From assembly GCA_028821405.1 (NCBI GenBank), contig JAPPGK010000067.1, positions 1 to 33,263 on the forward strand: a stretch of 33,263 nucleotides of DNA, read 5' to 3'. A program made the position numbers and the translations under genes. Origin of the DNA: Gammaproteobacteria bacterium. Lineage in GTDB: Bacteria; Pseudomonadota; Gammaproteobacteria; Pseudomonadales; Azotimanducaceae. Below the pieces are notes generated by a model. That model ran no database searches and had not been told where the DNA came from. It saw only the letters and a list, made by a program, of their open reading frames with translations. Shown here in pieces: positions 1 to 28,161 of the stretch. Each line of letters starts with the position of its first letter. The stretch's first letter is position 1.

Positions 1-53
1 GCAGCGGTCTCCAAAACCGCAGGTTGGGGGTTCGAGTCCCTCCTGGCCTGCCA
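1..53 (+). tRNA. tRNA-Trp (CCA anticodon), 3' part only
   Basis: This is the 3' two-thirds of a tRNA; the 5' acceptor strand and D arm lie before the window. The anticodon stem is 4-8 paired with 16-20, and its seven-base loop has CCA at 11-13, which reads the tryptophan codon UGG. The T stem is 26-30 with 38-42 around a TTCGAGT loop. The 3' acceptor strand ends with an encoded CCA at 51-53. A tRNA-Trp directly before secE-nusG is the usual order in many proteobacteria, which supports the call. Confidence 0.95.
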
Positions 54-23632: not shown

Positions 23633-24649
23633 ATGGCAGCGGTGGAGGGGATCGACATCGAAAACGTGACCGCTTGGGTCGCGGAACGGATCGACGGCTT
23701 GGAACCGCCGCTCGAGTTCACGCTGATCGCGGGCGGCCATTCGAATCTCACCTACAAGTTCGTGGACCGTCGGGGCGAGGCATTCGTGCTTCGCCGCCCG
23801 CCGCTAGGCCATATCCTGGAGAGTGCGCACGACATGGGACGGGAGCACCGCATCGTCTCGGCGCTTGTGCATACCGACGTGCCGGTGCCGGCGACCTTCG
23901 GATTGTGCGACGACAACGACGTCAACGGCGCTCACTTCTACCTGATGAAGTTCGTCGAAGGCGTCGTGCCCCATGACGCGCAAGCGGCGGCCACGATTCC
24001 CTTGGATGACCGCCGCTCGGCCGGCGAGCATATCGTCGACGTGCTCGCCACGCTTCACCTGATCGATCCCGACGACGTGGGACTTGGCACCCTCGCCCGC
24101 AAGGAGGGGTACATCGAACGTCAACTCAAGCGCTGGACCAAGCAATGGGAGGCGACCAAGACCCACGAGATCCCCGAGATGGAGGAGAGCGAACGCCTGT
24201 TGCACGAGGACATGCCCGAGCAGATCGGCTCGGCCATCGTTCACGGTGACTATCGCATCGGCAACATGATCATTCGCGACGGCCGCGTGGCGGCACTGCT
24301 GGACTGGGAACTGTGCACGCTCGGCGACCCCCTGGCGGACTTGGGCTACCTGCTCAACAACTGGATCGAACCGGGCGATCGGGGCGCCGAAGGCAATCCC
24401 ACCGGCGTGGGGGGCTTTCCCGGACGCGACCACGTGCTCGCCGTGTACGAGGAACGCACGGGTCGCGATCTCTCGCGCATCAACTACTACCGGGCGTTCT
24501 CCCACTGGCGCCTCGGGGCGATTGCCCAAGGCGTCTACAAGCGCTACCTCGTGGGCGCGATGGGCAGGAACCGCGATTTCGACTTGGAGAAGTACAAGCT
24601 CGGCATCCACCAACGGGCGGAATCGGCATTGAGGTTCCTGACGAACTGA
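23633..24649 (+). CDS. APH-fold phosphotransferase, ACAD10/11-like
   Basis: The protein is 338 residues with the aminoglycoside phosphotransferase (protein-kinase-like) fold. The ATP-binding part has a GGHSNLTYKF loop near 34 and a conserved FVLRRPP strand with the ATP-holding lysine position replaced by Arg. The catalytic loop is HGDYRIGN (His204, Asp206, Asn211), and the metal-binding Asp224 is in LLDWELCTLGDPLADLGYLL. These sequences are those of the family related to the kinase domains of ACAD10 and ACAD11, which phosphorylate hydroxyacyl-CoA-type compounds for lipid catabolism; antibiotic resistance is not suggested. The start has a very good AAAGGGG five bases upstream. It stands alone, with no acyl-CoA dehydrogenase next to it in this window. 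Confidence 0.88.
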   Translation: MAAVEGIDIENVTAWVAERIDGLEPPLEFTLIAGGHSNLTYKFVDRRGEAFVLRRPPLGHILESAHDMGREHRIVSALVHTDVPVPATFGLCDDNDVNGAHFYLMKFVEGVVPHDAQAAATIPLDDRRSAGEHIVDVLATLHLIDPDDVGLGTLARKEGYIERQLKRWTKQWEATKTHEIPEMEESERLLHEDMPEQIGSAIVHGDYRIGNMIIRDGRVAALLDWELCTLGDPLADLGYLLNNWIEPGDRGAEGNPTGVGGFPGRDHVLAVYEERTGRDLSRINYYRAFSHWRLGAIAQGVYKRYLVGAMGRNRDFDLEKYKLGIHQRAESALRFLTN

Positions 24650-24707: not shown

Positions 24708-24828
24708 AAAAAAGGGGGCGCGCCAGCGGTGACTTGCACCGCTGGAGGCAGCTTCAATTTGGGGGGAAGGACACAAGCATACAGGGAGGACCGAAGCTGC
24801 TGACGCGCCTAAACTCAATTTGTACTGG
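24708..24828 (-). ncRNA. Candidate structured small RNA, three-way junction
   Basis: Read on the - strand, about 120 nt fold without strain. An outer stem P1 (GGCGCG, 24809-24804, with CGCGCC, 24722-24717) closes two arms. P2 is GCAGCTTC (24800-24793) with GAAGCTGC (24755-24748), holding a 37-base pyrimidine-rich loop. P3 is CCAGCGGTG (24745-24737) with CACCGCTGG (24731-24723) around a five-base loop. P1 is followed by CCC and six Ts (24713-24708), a Rho-independent style end. The P2 loop contains CCTCCC and TCCTTCCCCCC, which can pair with Shine-Dalgarno sequences. A strong promoter sits upstream. It lies about 70 bases after the MerR gene on the same strand and is probably its own transcript. 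I recognise no known RNA family. On the + strand the same fold would be the 3' end of the kinase message. Confidence 0.68.
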
Positions 24829-24843
24829 TTTTGTATAGTACAA
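24820..24843 (-). promoter_or_regulatory. Probable MerR-type operator at the small RNA promoter
   Basis: In + strand letters, TTGTACT (24820-24826) and AGTACAA (24837-24843) form an inverted repeat. TTGTAC (24820) and TTGTAT (24831) are also direct repeats exactly 11 bases apart. The site covers the -10 box and the expected start, which suits repression. The same TTGTAC half-site recurs at the merR promoter. Confidence 0.6.
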
Positions 24844-24882
24844 GCGATTTAGCGGCTGTCAAGCTTTTTTTGAGTTTTTTTT
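24835..24882 (-). promoter_or_regulatory. Strong promoter with UP element for the small RNA
   Basis: On the - strand, eight As (24882-24875) and seven As (24871-24865) lie about 11 bases apart, followed two bases later by a perfect TTGACA at 24862-24857. The -10 is TACTAT at 24840-24835 (16-base spacer), or TATACA at 24837-24832 (19-base spacer, the unusual length seen in MerR-activated promoters). Phased A-tracts directly before a -35 are a classic UP element. The AT content stands out against the GC-rich surroundings. Confidence 0.72.
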
Positions 24883-24899: not shown

Positions 24900-25802
24900 T
24901 CAGTTCGCGGCGGCCAATAGCCCATGTGTCTCGACGAAGACGCTCAGCGACTCCTCAAGTTGCGCGCGCGCGCCACCGAGGCGCTTCTCTGCCAGTGCGT
25001 GGTCCCGACCGACGGTGCCGTGGCGGACCCCGCATCGGTGGGTATGGGTCTCGAAATCGTTGATCTCGCCAATGAGCTCGGCGAGGTGGCGCGGACATTC
25101 ACATCCCGCCCGCGAAGCCATCAGTGATATGTGCACGAGCTCCTCATCGCTGTAGCGTCTCGACGAGGTCGGGTCTGCAGACGTCGAGGCGCGAACGCGG
25201 CGCACCAGGGTCTGCCATTCCGCTGGCCAGCGCAGGATTGCCCGCCCGGACTGGCGGCATTCGTCGAGGTCGGTGGCCGTGGCATATCGGAATGCAACGA
25301 CCACTCGACTATCGGGACAGACTTCCTGAATACCTTCAATGTGTTGGGTGTCCAAGGTGGGCACGTAGACGACTAGGCAGTCAAGTTGGGGGAGCGCGCC
25401 CCGATCTGCTTTGAGCTCCGCCGCGCTTGTCCATTCGGCAACGATGTCCAGACCAACGTCGCCGGTCACGAGGTCCCGGCAGGCTTCGCGATGGGCAAGG
25501 ATGAGCTGCCCGCCCACGAGGCCGGTCCTGGGCCGGTGGGCCGGGGAGCGGATTGGCTGCGGGCGCAATCGTCGTTGCAGTTCGTCGTCATCGAGCCTTA
25601 ACAGTTGGCTGATGGGGTGGCCTTGATCGAGCAGCGTCTTGACGTTGAGGAGCCGTTGGACCTGGGATGCGCTATAGAAGCGTGTCTTGCCCGCCCGTTC
25701 GGCCGGCTGCAGGCCATAGCGCCGTTCCCAAGCGCGCAGACATTCGGGACTGATCCCGGTGCGTTTGGCGACGGCGCCGATCTTGTATAGATCCTCGTCC
25801 AC
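24900..25802 (-). CDS. MerR-family transcriptional regulator
   Basis: The protein is 300 residues. The N-terminal winged helix-turn-helix is a clear MerR domain: YKIGAVAKRTGISPECLRAW, then ERRYGLQPAERAGKTRFYS, then the dimerisation helix with LLDQGHPISQLLRLDDDEL. The middle part (about 95-200) alternates hydrophobic strands and helices as in a flavodoxin/receiver-like or cobalamin-domain fold, but the B12-binding His motif of CarH/LitR is not seen. The C-terminal part (about 210-300) is helical and contains CECPRHLAELIGEINDFE, a segment that I recall from other CarH/LitR-type regulators. The start is GTG 25802, with GGATCGAG upstream. It probably represses its own promoter and that of the small RNA. 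The ligand is unknown; its two cysteines in CEC could sense redox or metal. Confidence 0.85.
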   Translation of the reverse strand: MDEDLYKIGAVAKRTGISPECLRAWERRYGLQPAERAGKTRFYSASQVQRLLNVKTLLDQGHPISQLLRLDDDELQRRLRPQPIRSPAHRPRTGLVGGQLILAHREACRDLVTGDVGLDIVAEWTSAAELKADRGALPQLDCLVVYVPTLDTQHIEGIQEVCPDSRVVVAFRYATATDLDECRQSGRAILRWPAEWQTLVRRVRASTSADPTSSRRYSDEELVHISLMASRAGCECPRHLAELIGEINDFETHTHRCGVRHGTVGRDHALAEKRLGGARAQLEESLSVFVETHGLLAAAN

Positions 25803-25829
25803 GCTCGATCCGGTCGAAGTGGACCGCCG

Positions 25830-25858
25830 ATTGTACGTTCCTATACGTTATTTGTACA
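25830..25858 (-). promoter_or_regulatory. merR promoter overlapped by repeated TTGTAC half-sites
   Basis: On the - strand, TGTACA (25858-25853) and TACAAT (25835-25830) are 17 bases apart and form a good -35/-10 pair, with about 20 bases from the expected start to the GTG. The same stretch in + letters has TTGTAC (25831), CTATAC (25841) and TTGTAC (25852), spaced 10 and 11 bases, one helical turn. Tandem 11-base half-sites over the promoter are how CarH-type MerR proteins bind. The site also lies in the divergent region of the HATPase gene. Confidence 0.6.
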
Positions 25859-25946
25859 CGCGCCGTGCTCGCCTGCTCGCTTGCCGTAGAGGCACCCCTT
25901 GCAGTCGCCCGGTTGACACACCCAAATGTCGGTGCCGCGGTGTGGC

Positions 25947-25975
25947 CCCGTGTTTGGCACGGGATGATGTACTAT
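25947..25975 (+). promoter_or_regulatory. Possible leaderless start region of the HATPase gene
   Basis: CCCGTG (25947-25952) and CACGGG (25958-25963) form an inverted repeat, and TACTAT at 25970-25975 resembles a -10 box seven bases before ATG 25982. There is no good -35 at the right distance; a perfect TTGACA at 25913-25918 is too far for this box. Confidence 0.3.
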
Positions 25976-25981
25976 CGTCGC

Positions 25982-26437
25982 ATGGGCGGTGCCGGATCAG
26001 ACCAGCAGGGTTCCAACCGGGGGATGCACGTATCGCTGCAGCCGGAGTTGAACACGGCTCTCACGGCGTTGGCGGACGCGGTCGAGGAGTTCGCGGCGCG
26101 GGAGTCGCTCGGTGGCGCATTGTCGATCAACCTCAACCTGGTTCTCGACGAACTGGTTACCAACAGCGTCAGCTACGCGTTGACCGAAGTGGAGAAGCCA
26201 ATGCTTGAGCTGCGGCTTCGACGCGATGGCGATCTGGTGGTCGCCGAGGTTGAGGACAACGGTGCCGCGTTCGATCCCTTCAAGGACGCGCCGAAGCCCG
26301 ACACCAAAAAGGGTCTCGACGAGAGACCGATAGGCGGACTCGGGGTGTTCCTGGTGATGCAACTCACCGAGACGGCTCACTATGAGCGCGCCGGCGACGT
26401 CAACAGGATCATCCTGCATATGAAGATGGAGACCTGA
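25982..26437 (+). CDS. Anti-sigma-type HATPase (RsbW/SpoIIAB-like)
   Basis: The protein is 151 residues from this ATG and consists of one GHKL ATPase domain of the serine-kinase anti-sigma type. The N box is LNLVLDELVTNSVSYAL, followed by VEDNGAAFDPF (G1) and GGLGVFLVMQL (G2). Such proteins bind and phosphorylate a STAS partner and hold a target, usually a sigma factor. The STAS gene follows after five bases. The start is uncertain: ATG 25982 has no ribosome-binding site, but lies seven bases after a TACTAT box (25970-25975), so the message may be leaderless; ATG 26024 would give a compact 137-residue protein. A perfect small hairpin (25947-25963, CCCGTG with CACGGG) precedes it. No sigma factor gene is nearby. 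Confidence 0.86.
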   Translation: MGGAGSDQQGSNRGMHVSLQPELNTALTALADAVEEFAARESLGGALSINLNLVLDELVTNSVSYALTEVEKPMLELRLRRDGDLVVAEVEDNGAAFDPFKDAPKPDTKKGLDERPIGGLGVFLVMQLTETAHYERAGDVNRIILHMKMET

Positions 26438-26442
26438 TACAC

Positions 26443-26793
26443 ATGGCGAATCAATCCAACCTGACGGTCCCGAGCGTCGAGCAGGACAATGCCGTTGTGC
26501 TTTGCCCGACCGGTCGCGTGGACGGTACGAACGTGACGATCCTCCAGGGCGCTGTGCGCGAACGGCTGGAGGCCGGACAGGCGAACATCGTGTTCGACCT
26601 CGCCGATCTGAACTACATCAGCAGTGCGGGCCTCCGGGTATTCCTCATGGCCGCCCGGGACCTCCAGGGGCAGGGCGGTAGAGCCGCCTTCTGCAACCTA
26701 TCCGAGCAGATCCGCCAGGTGTTCGAGATCACGGGCTTCGACAAGATCCTGTCCGTTCACGGCAACCGCGACGATGCCCTGTCGACCTTTTGA
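26443..26793 (+). CDS. STAS-domain anti-sigma factor antagonist
   Basis: The protein is 116 residues and is a single STAS domain of the SpoIIAA/RsbV type. The conserved loop FDLADLNYISSAGLRVFLMA (51-70) has the phosphorylatable serine, Ser61 by alignment with SpoIIAA Ser58 (Ser60 is next to it). Unphosphorylated, it should bind the HATPase encoded just upstream and release that protein's target; phosphorylated, it should let go. The receiver-PP2C protein encoded downstream is the likely phosphatase. The ribosome-binding site is weak (GGAG, 12 bases away), and coupling to the upstream gene through the five-base gap probably helps. Full-length and intact. Confidence 0.9.
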   Translation: MANQSNLTVPSVEQDNAVVLCPTGRVDGTNVTILQGAVRERLEAGQANIVFDLADLNYISSAGLRVFLMAARDLQGQGGRAAFCNLSEQIRQVFEITGFDKILSVHGNRDDALSTF

Positions 26794-26855
26794 TCGTCGA
26801 CCTGTCGCGGGGAACACGTCAGTCGAAACGGCGGCGCGACGACGACGCGGCGTAG

Positions 26856-26876
26856 GGGACGGGCCTGGCCGGTCCC
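26856..26876 (+). terminator. Imperfect terminator-like hairpin after STAS gene
   Basis: GGGAC (26856-26860) pairs with GTCCC (26872-26876), then a G-G mismatch, then GG with CC around a five-base loop. It resembles the hairpin after rpoC in sequence (GGGACGGGC core, then GTCCCGCGTC). There is no T run. The 201-base gap up to the next gene is otherwise GC-rich and empty. Confidence 0.35.
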
Positions 26877-26994
26877 GCGTCTGCCGTCGCATTCAACGCC
26901 CGGCCGTCGCGAATCCGCACCTCGGCGCGCCCTGGCGGGCCGCTTCGGGCCGCGACGGATTACGGTGCGTTTCGACGTACCGCAGGATGAAGTG

Positions 26995-28161
26995 ATGTCC
27001 ACGTCGGCGAAGATACTGGTCGTTGACGACGAGGAAGACCTCGAACTGTTGATGCGGCAGCGGTTTCGCCGCCAAGTGCGCAGGGGCGAGTACGAGTTCT
27101 ACTTTGCGCACAATGGCCGGGAGGCATTGGATGTGCTGGGGGAGAACCCGGACATCCGACTGGTGCTGTCCGATATCAACATGCCCGTCATGGATGGACT
27201 CACGTTGCTAAGCCAGTTGGCGGAGATCGAGGCCAACATATCCGCGGTCGTGGTGTCCGCCTACGGCGACATGGCGAACATCCGCACGGCCATGAACCGG
27301 GGCGCTTTCGACTTCGTTACCAAACCCATCGATTTCAGTGACCTGCAGGTCACCGTCGAGAAGACCTTGCGCCACATACAGGTCCTGGAAGATGCCTTGG
27401 TATCCCGTGACCGGCTTGTGGCCCTCAGGCAGGAATTGGTGGTGGCGAGCCAGGTACAGACATCCGTCCTGCCGGCCGCGCTGCCCGTCACCGAGCACTT
27501 CGACGTGCATGCCCAGATGACGCCGGCCCGCGAGATAGGCGGCGACTTCTACGACTTCTTCAGCGTCGACGAATACCGGATGGGGTTGGTGATCGCCGAC
27601 GTTTCGGACAAGGGCATTCCCGCAGCGCTGTTCACGATGGTAAGCCGTGCGCTCCTCAAGGCCGCCGCGCGCAACCACGTGTCGCCGTCGGCGTGTCTCC
27701 ACGAGGTGAACCAGCTCGTCAGCCAGGACAACGACGCGTGCATGTTCGTCACGTTGTTCTATGCCGTGCTCGATCTGCGCGACGGAAACCTGCGCTACTG
27801 CAACGGCGGCCACAATCCGCCCCGGCTCATCAGCCGGGGGGAGATCCGGGAAGTACCGTCCACCGGGGACATCGCGCTCGGCATCTTCATGGAGCACGAG
27901 TTCCACGACAACGAGGTTGTTCTGGGCGTGGGCGATGCCTTGTTCCTCTACACGGACGGGATCACCGAGGCGTGCAACGTCGCGGAGGAGGAGTTCGGCG
28001 AGAAGCGTCTCGACGAGATGCTCGAGCGTACGGGGGATGCCTCGATATCGGACGTGGTGGCCGAGGTTGTCGGGGCGGTCGAGGAGTTCGCCGGCGGCGT
28101 CGCGCAGTTCGATGACATGACCTGCTTGGCGGTGCGGTTGAACAGTACGAAGCCGGCTTGA
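26995..28161 (+). CDS. Response regulator with PP2C (RsbU/SpoIIE) phosphatase output
   Basis: The protein is 388 residues. The N-terminal receiver domain (5-120) has the acidic pocket VVDDEED, phosphoacceptor Asp60 in LVLSDINMP, and Lys110 in FVTKPID. A linker helix (about 121-155) leads to a PP2C-type SpoIIE phosphatase with EIGGDFYDFF (Asp184), VIADVSDKGIPAALF (Asp202), LYTDGITEA and FDDMTCLAV near the end, so all metal-binding aspartates are present. Phosphorylation by a histidine kinase should switch on removal of phosphate from the STAS protein. ATG 26995 has AGGA eight bases upstream; a GTG at 26965 would add ten residues without such a site. The likely kinase is encoded two genes downstream. 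Similar to HsbR/CrsR-type regulators, but here the HATPase is a separate protein. Confidence 0.93.
   Translation: MSTSAKILVVDDEEDLELLMRQRFRRQVRRGEYEFYFAHNGREALDVLGENPDIRLVLSDINMPVMDGLTLLSQLAEIEANISAVVVSAYGDMANIRTAMNRGAFDFVTKPIDFSDLQVTVEKTLRHIQVLEDALVSRDRLVALRQELVVASQVQTSVLPAALPVTEHFDVHAQMTPAREIGGDFYDFFSVDEYRMGLVIADVSDKGIPAALFTMVSRALLKAAARNHVSPSACLHEVNQLVSQDNDACMFVTLFYAVLDLRDGNLRYCNGGHNPPRLISRGEIREVPSTGDIALGIFMEHEFHDNEVVLGVGDALFLYTDGITEACNVAEEEFGEKRLDEMLERTGDASISDVVAEVVGAVEEFAGGVAQFDDMTCLAVRLNSTKPA

Follow-up and report, generated by a model that had tools for sequence, protein, structure and literature searches.

We analysed a stretch of 33,263 nucleotides (nt) from a gammaproteobacterial genome of the family Azotimanducaceae (assembly GCA_028821405.1, contig JAPPGK010000067.1; hereafter the window, whose positions serve as coordinates throughout), in which a first-pass annotation had proposed a small RNA gene with its own promoter downstream of a MerR-family regulator gene. 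The regulator gene (merR) occupies 24900..25802 on the minus strand and encodes 300 amino acids (aa), whereas the RNA gene, read on the same strand, covers ~120 nt at 24708..24828, where a covariance model matches it as a three-way junction. All the parts that had been listed, namely A8 and A7 tracts, a TTGACA, a −10 box, a three-stem junction and a run of six Ts, could be read directly at 24882-24708. Along the minus strand, the end of merR (stop codon 24902-24900) is followed by the A8 (24882-24875) and A7 (24871-24865) tracts, a possible UP-like element (24865..24882) whose tract centres lie 10.5 base pairs (bp) apart and are therefore in helical phase. Next come the −35 hexamer TTGACA (24857..24862; by sequence and promoter scan) and, after a 16-bp spacer, the −10 hexamer TACTAT (24835..24840; promoter scan); an alternative −10, TATACA, would have a 19-bp spacer. 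The palindrome TGTACTATACA (24832..24842) lies over the −10 and is predicted to be the probable MerR site, and a further half-site, AGTACA (24821..24826), is kept in loci L002-L006 (as GGTACA in L006). The RNA follows, with its 5′ end inferred at 7 nt past the −10 and its 3′ end placed at the T-run (T6; 24708..24713).

The predicted fold joins three stems: P1 pairs GGCGCG (24804..24809) with CGCGCC (24717..24722), P2 pairs GCAGCUUC (24793..24800) with GAAGCUGC (24748..24755), and P3 pairs CCAGCGGUG (24737..24745) with CACCGCUGG (24723..24731). P2 carries a long C-rich loop with two motifs, GTCCTCCC (motif 1; 24784..24791), which includes CCTCC (CCUCC in RNA, the anti-Shine-Dalgarno core), and GTGTCCTTCCCCCC (motif 2; 24761..24774). 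The minimum free energy was −40.9 kcal/mol, compared with a mean of −28.3 for shuffled sequences (z −4.0; 0 of 200 shuffles as low), and the minimum free energy and centroid folds were both three-way junctions. T6 has the look of an intrinsic terminator end and the homologue consensus tail is T-rich; a simple terminator scan did not list it, probably because the preceding stem closes a multi-branched loop.

Homologues were collected by searching 58 genomes with the merR protein, which gave 30 loci, and by inspecting the sequence 3′ of merR. Twenty-five loci supplied RNAs for a seed alignment and a covariance model (R1); L027 held a weaker RNA, L019 reached a contig end, and no RNA was seen in L028-L030, the most distant merR loci. 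The window copy scores 100.8 bits with R1, being itself one of the 25 seed sequences. R1 matched 27 of the 58 relatives, 26 inside the window's family and one, weakly, outside it (G053), and of the 206 family genomes it matched 97, spread over 18 of 37 genera; G124 has two copies and the other 96 have one each. A search of 390 genomes of the order returned eight matches, every one inside the family, while 274 genomes of the class yielded only the window's genome and one weak match (G584). Both outlying matches lack a merR and were judged to be chance (G053, E value 0.042; G584, E value 0.0019), and none of the genomes sampled held a convincing copy outside the family. Scanning a public collection of named genomes with a linear loop pattern, for which neither structure nor merR was required, gave 62 loci. 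R1 confirmed 57, all in metagenome-assembled genome records titled Gammaproteobacteria, Pseudomonadales or Pseudomonadaceae, a few of whose titles (ALOHA, K_Offshore_80m) suggest open water; the five unconfirmed loci, in two Streptomyces records and in Planctomycetaceae, Alphaproteobacteria and Intrasporangiaceae records, were set aside. Consistent with the first-pass remark that no known RNA class could be recognised, the RNA was unmatched in Rfam 15 (4227 families) at gathering thresholds, where the sole match in the window was a transfer RNA (tRNA) at its start, and at E values up to 10 gave only a 12.3-bit match to a long non-coding RNA family on the opposite strand.

Compensating changes in the homologous spacers, the check proposed along with the annotation, supported the stems. 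A first set of 29 R1 matches, which included three copies of a second RNA upstream of merR (described below) and the weak, short L027, had 96.5% of its cells paired and two-sided changes in 16 of 21 pairs. The main set comprised 94 RNAs, 91 of them distinct, and was compared with 500 shuffles: 96.7% of pair cells were kept (81.3% shuffled), 16 of 21 pairs had two-sided changes, covariation was 0.451 (0.171 shuffled), and 0 of 500 shuffles reached any of the five measures, although both alignments were fitted to the model, so that the counts lean towards structure, and relatedness alone can beat shuffles, though as a rule not in the counts of pairs or types. When partners were slid by 1–3 columns, pairing fell to 31–53%. 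Two-sided changes were found in 8/8 modelled pairs of P2 and 7/7 of P3, whereas P1 (99.8% of cells paired) had one covarying pair (U-A/C-G) and five invariant pairs that are uninformative either way. We are nearly certain, on this evidence, that the locus encodes a real structured RNA. That the locus is a small coding gene or a leader acting in cis is barely credible: a 112-codon open reading frame (ORF) does overlap the RNA on the minus strand, but the lengths of the 91 RNAs fall 35/28/28 into the three frames, for which reason a conserved reading frame was rejected, and the maximum length of a closed ORF within the RNA ranges from 0 to 33 aa; the next gene in the window is convergent, on the opposite strand, and so leaves a leader no downstream gene to lead.

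The merR partner, the promoter and the operator

The annotated position downstream of a MerR gene proved to be a fixed pairing and not a positional coincidence. A tblastn match to merR ended 55–312 nt upstream of the RNA, on the same strand, in 93 of 94 copies, and the lone copy without a match lies at a contig end with only 104 nt of upstream sequence. merR likewise stood beside 51 of the 57 confirmed pattern loci (match end 71–240 nt upstream), and the other six have at most 439 nt upstream. The RNA could on these grounds be merely the 3′ end of the merR transcript, either an elaborate terminator or an RNA derived from the 3′ untranslated region, with no promoter of its own, and the intrinsic-type T-run would suit such an origin; we hold this to be very improbable, as a three-way junction and a conserved C-rich loop would both be superfluous in a terminator, and as promoter and operator motifs recur ahead of the RNA.

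Of the 93 homologous promoters, counted over the 110 nt ahead of the RNA, 64 contained TTGACA (6.5 on average in shuffles). The 30 nt 5′ of the −35 contained 69% A+T (80 promoters with a usable TTGAC), compared with 37% in merR coding controls, and a 3-kilobase scan found two sigma-70-like sites (0.5 per shuffle), one of which is the RNA promoter, with 10 of 12 matches. The dedicated promoter claimed for the RNA is thereby supported. Its phased AT tracts had been taken for an UP element, and they may act in part as one: AT-richness is conserved, but the region is not merely UP-like, since a TGTACA-type operator is present too, and the phasing seen in the window is lost in the five nearest relatives (L002-L006), where only the tract beside the −35 is kept.

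TGTACA occurred 149 times in the 93 promoters (82 of them had it), compared with 7.2 times in shuffles and only 2 times in 90 merR-body controls, and the palindrome TGTACwGTACA was found in 65 of the 93 (shuffles, 0). In the commonest layout the palindrome starts 13 nt after the start of the −35 and runs into CATAAT, whereas in the window's subclade it starts 20 nt after; both have a −10-like hexamer offset by 22 nt from the −35. The window site can be laid out as TGTACT-N10-AGTACA. Half-sites also mark the merR promoter region (25803..25862, minus strand), in which TGTACA and CGTACAAT were read, and 49 of 57 merR genes have TGTACA-like half-sites in the 150 nt before them (a raw count, without a shuffle control). 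A classic MerR activator site with a 19-bp spacer, which would need TATACA as the −10, was judged less likely because spacing in the relatives is normal. By eye, L010 and L011 have an extra hairpin, GGCGACG-TAAGGAAG-CGTCGCC, between promoter and RNA.

The MerR product matches Pfam MerR_1 (E value 3e-16), and its predicted model (predicted local distance difference test score, 89) runs from a CarH-like helix-turn-helix (HTH) domain through a Rossmann/receiver-like domain to C-terminal helices. By sequence comparison, its DNA-binding domain is closest to that of CarH: a PDB sequence search, which covered the HTH only, placed CarH (5c8d, 2.5e-13) at the top together with 3whp ('Probable transcriptional regulator', 2.4e-13), and a CarH profile model ranked first, though its 39 bits fall well short of the equivalog cut-off of 400. 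Foldseek on the predicted model also placed CarH first, with a TM-score so low (0.24) that the domain arrangement appears to differ from that of CarH. Together, the fixed pairing and the shared half-sites make it very likely that the RNA is controlled by the adjacent MerR, and the RNA would, judging by the sites, be the main direct MerR target besides merR itself.

The C-rich loop and a candidate circuit

CCUCC or CCUUCC was present in all 91 P2 loops. Motif 1 was found as GTCCTCCC in 58 of 91 and as CCTCC in 73, motif 2 as CCTTCCCC in 81 and as GTGTCCTTCCCC in 69, while GTCCTTCC occurred in 82 and at least two copies of GTCCTYC in 67. Loop identity over well-filled columns was 0.87, compared with 0.75 for the P2 stem and 0.76 for P3 (the P1 stem, at 0.96, is nearly invariant), a constancy that is inflated by the choice of seeds with a C-rich filter and by R1 itself, which scores loop letters. 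Covarying stems that carry a constant C-rich loop are as expected if the loop is a base-pairing or binding site.

We consider it fairly probable, for the reading as a whole, that a CarH/LitR-like MerR controls itself and a dedicated small RNA that uses its C-rich loop to pair with G-rich ribosome-binding sites. The RNA gene and the preceding merR would form a two-part module, in which MerR would bind the palindrome and its own promoter, most likely repressing the RNA promoter and releasing it on a signal, in parallel with CarH/LitR regulators. Repression is the most likely mode because the −35/−10 spacing is normal (about 16–18 bp) and the site overlaps the −10. After release, the RNA would accumulate, and its C-rich loop, with GUCCUCCC and GUGUCCUUCCCC as an anti-Shine-Dalgarno look-alike, would pair with G-rich ribosome-binding sites and block translation of target messenger RNAs (mRNAs). 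On motif and analogy, action by loop pairing is probable.

One close likeness is to sX13 of Xanthomonas, which is highly structured and Hfq-independent, has apical C-rich loops as its active parts, and represses mRNAs with G-rich motifs near their start codons (PMC3771888). The window RNA is likewise structured and has a C-rich apical loop, but sX13 consists of three stem-loops with C4/C5 loops, whereas the window RNA has one long C-rich loop, on P2, within a closed three-way junction; the MerR link and the operator are the window RNA's own features. The loop might instead be a protein-binding site, for a chaperone, the ribosome or even MerR, with the RNA serving as a sponge or scaffold and not pairing with mRNAs. 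This we regard as unlikely, even though a conserved motif in a rigid junction, and the target searches given below, would accord with it: the CCUCC core in motif 1 (73 of 91 loops) and the comparable sX13, whose C-rich loops target G-rich motifs close to the start codon (PMC3771888), both speak for pairing with mRNAs.

Three further systems share part of the arrangement. In pairs of the OxyR-OxyS type, a regulator gene lies beside the small RNA that it controls; the window pair differs from them in regulator family, arrangement and RNA fold. The CcsR or 'cuckoo' RNAs reportedly contain an anti-Shine-Dalgarno-like C/U-rich motif. Four such RNAs at the CIN1 locus of alphaproteobacteria are co-transcribed with a DUF1127 RNA-binding protein from an RpoH promoter (PMC10253847). 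The likeness to this account is a small RNA in a locus with one protein gene, but the partner here is MerR, a sigma-70-type promoter seems to be dedicated to the RNA, and no DUF1127 gene was seen next to it: by Pfam, the window neighbours are MerR and APH, and merR is the partner at 93 of 94 loci. PmlR2 of Pseudomonas mendocina, a class II LitR, is described as a MerR-family HTH repressor acting on TGTACA half-sites arranged as TGTACA-N12-TGTACA, in a text that does not use the term 'small RNA' (PMC9758184). The two systems share a MerR-family HTH protein and TGTACA half-sites at promoters, but the family sites here are mostly the 11-bp palindrome TGTACwGTACA and not TGTACA-N12-TGTACA, and the window MerR has a Rossmann/receiver-like domain, whereas class II LitRs are said to keep a helix bundle only.

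Several observations, besides the inflated loop constancy, weigh against the proposed circuit. The pattern TGTACWNTACA occurs once in the window's genome, as TGTACTATACA, but a reversed control pattern is equally rare (1), and the control is about as rare per genome elsewhere, so that uniqueness itself is weak evidence; what counts for the operator is therefore its position on the RNA promoter rather than how rare it is. At the RNA promoter the pattern was found in 6 of 16 genomes of the window's genus, each with a single copy; in the 58-relative set, 16 of 26 RNA-bearing family genomes had it there, and for 12 of the 16 it was the genome's sole copy. TGTACwGTACA occurred solely at the RNA in 10 RNA-bearing genomes, and several RNA-less genomes have copies elsewhere. 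The remaining 10 of the 26 genomes lack TGTACWNTACA at the RNA, a count to be read with the pattern's blindness to other layouts such as the merR-promoter type, and some RNA promoters have only TGTCC-type variants. These gaps would suit a loop that pairs with mRNAs under a regulator other than the adjacent MerR; we think such a regulator improbable, given that the merR promoter shares the TGTACA sites of the RNA promoter, that TGTACA in the RNA promoters far exceeds shuffles and that the pairing is fixed.

The comparison with CarH has its own difficulty. Pfam at an E value of 0.001 gave only DNA-binding (HTH) domains for MerR and no B12-binding domain, so that nothing in it corresponds to the B12-binding domain in the well-known CarH domain order, and the analogy to light control may fail because of this. 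Light or cobalamin as the signal is unlikely, and activation by MerR is a less likely alternative to repression.

Searches for targets of the loop add to the case against pairing. The merR mRNA was rejected as a target, since pairing was not concentrated at its start: 11 of 52 genomes had the start region among their top-scoring 10% of windows, a share that a best-of-several score would reach by chance. The exact complement GGGGAAGGAC was found before an ATG 57 times: 50 hits lie in 37 family genomes (one being the RNA locus of G013; reversed control, 26) and 7 in 21 other genomes (reversed control, 15). RNA-less family genomes also contain such hits, and among 30 of the 57 places inspected, many ATGs had no long frame and no gene recurred. 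Near-complements of motif 2 (GGGGGAAGGACAC, at most one mismatch) gave 86 hits in the 16 genus genomes (reversed control, 35), of which 8 exact ones are the RNA itself, leaving 78 besides it. We inspected 47 of the 86 places (30 loci and 17 fetched) and rejected three recurring sites, in 7, 4 and 3 genomes, as they lie opposite conserved coding frames; frame identity showed the coding sense of the first and third, and inspection by eye suggested that the second is antisense to a GKTLAIVGESG stretch of ABC type. Neither the merR test nor the complement searches gave a conserved mRNA-strand target, and we infer the pairing step, for this reason, from motif and analogy.

What distinguishes the family is its fixed MerR partner, an operator on the RNA promoter and a conserved C-rich loop. 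A well-supported RNA family, with its structure, promoter, operator and a probable regulator, is added in a clade whose named RNA-bearing records found are all metagenome-assembled genomes. Among the matches listed from open-licence literature, none dealt with this RNA or with a small RNA under CarH/LitR control, and none linked a CarH/LitR-type regulator to a small RNA. Since the C-rich loop sits on a covarying scaffold, the anti-Shine-Dalgarno idea is directly testable.

A second RNA and the surroundings of the locus

Mostly upstream of merR, a second, related three-way-junction RNA with a CU-rich loop (UCUCUCUCCCCUUCCUCCC) was found, for example at L013:1255-1345, L022:1226-1317 and L063:6138-6219, and 14 of the sequences listed were aligned to build its model (R2). 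R2 matched 35 of 206 family genomes and none of the 16 genomes in the window's genus. merR was present in 29 of 31 second-RNA loci inspected, with the RNA before it in 27 and behind it in 2 (L254, L147). Across the 31 sequences, 15 of 21 pairs had two-sided changes (0 of 500 shuffles as high). By eye, several of the upstream regions contain stretches resembling TTGCAnnGCAA and TAGAATGC, and a TGTACA palindrome was not seen in those regions.

A more far-reaching proposal, which we put forward only tentatively and think somewhat unlikely, is that the direct regulon of MerR comprises essentially one RNA and itself, such that an environmental signal would be converted directly into an anti-Shine-Dalgarno RNA retuning the translation of many mRNAs with G-rich leaders together; in many relatives, this RNA would be paired with the second, separately regulated three-way-junction RNA, which has a similar C-rich loop and lies mostly on the other side of merR. 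We rate the one-RNA regulon lower because the reversed control was about as rare as the operator pattern and because the pattern misses merR-type sites.

Behind the distant merR homologues of L028, L029 and L030, small ORFs were seen by eye in the place of the RNA, of ~30 aa in L028 and L029 (e.g. MNSILNNPILFGVLLAVGLGYLPLISLAL) and ~75 aa in L030, with TAGACA-like sites at those of L028 and L029; these may represent a different type of output for regulators of this group. Divergent to merR, at 25865-28161 on the plus strand, lie HATPase, STAS and receiver-SpoIIE phosphatase genes by Pfam, a partner-switching module. Convergent on the RNA is a gene for an APH-fold phosphotransferase (23633-24649, plus strand; Pfam), and the sequence after the RNA is similar by eye in several genus members. 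The tRNA at the start of the window (1-50, plus strand; Rfam tRNA, 34.9 bits) is truncated by the window's edge.
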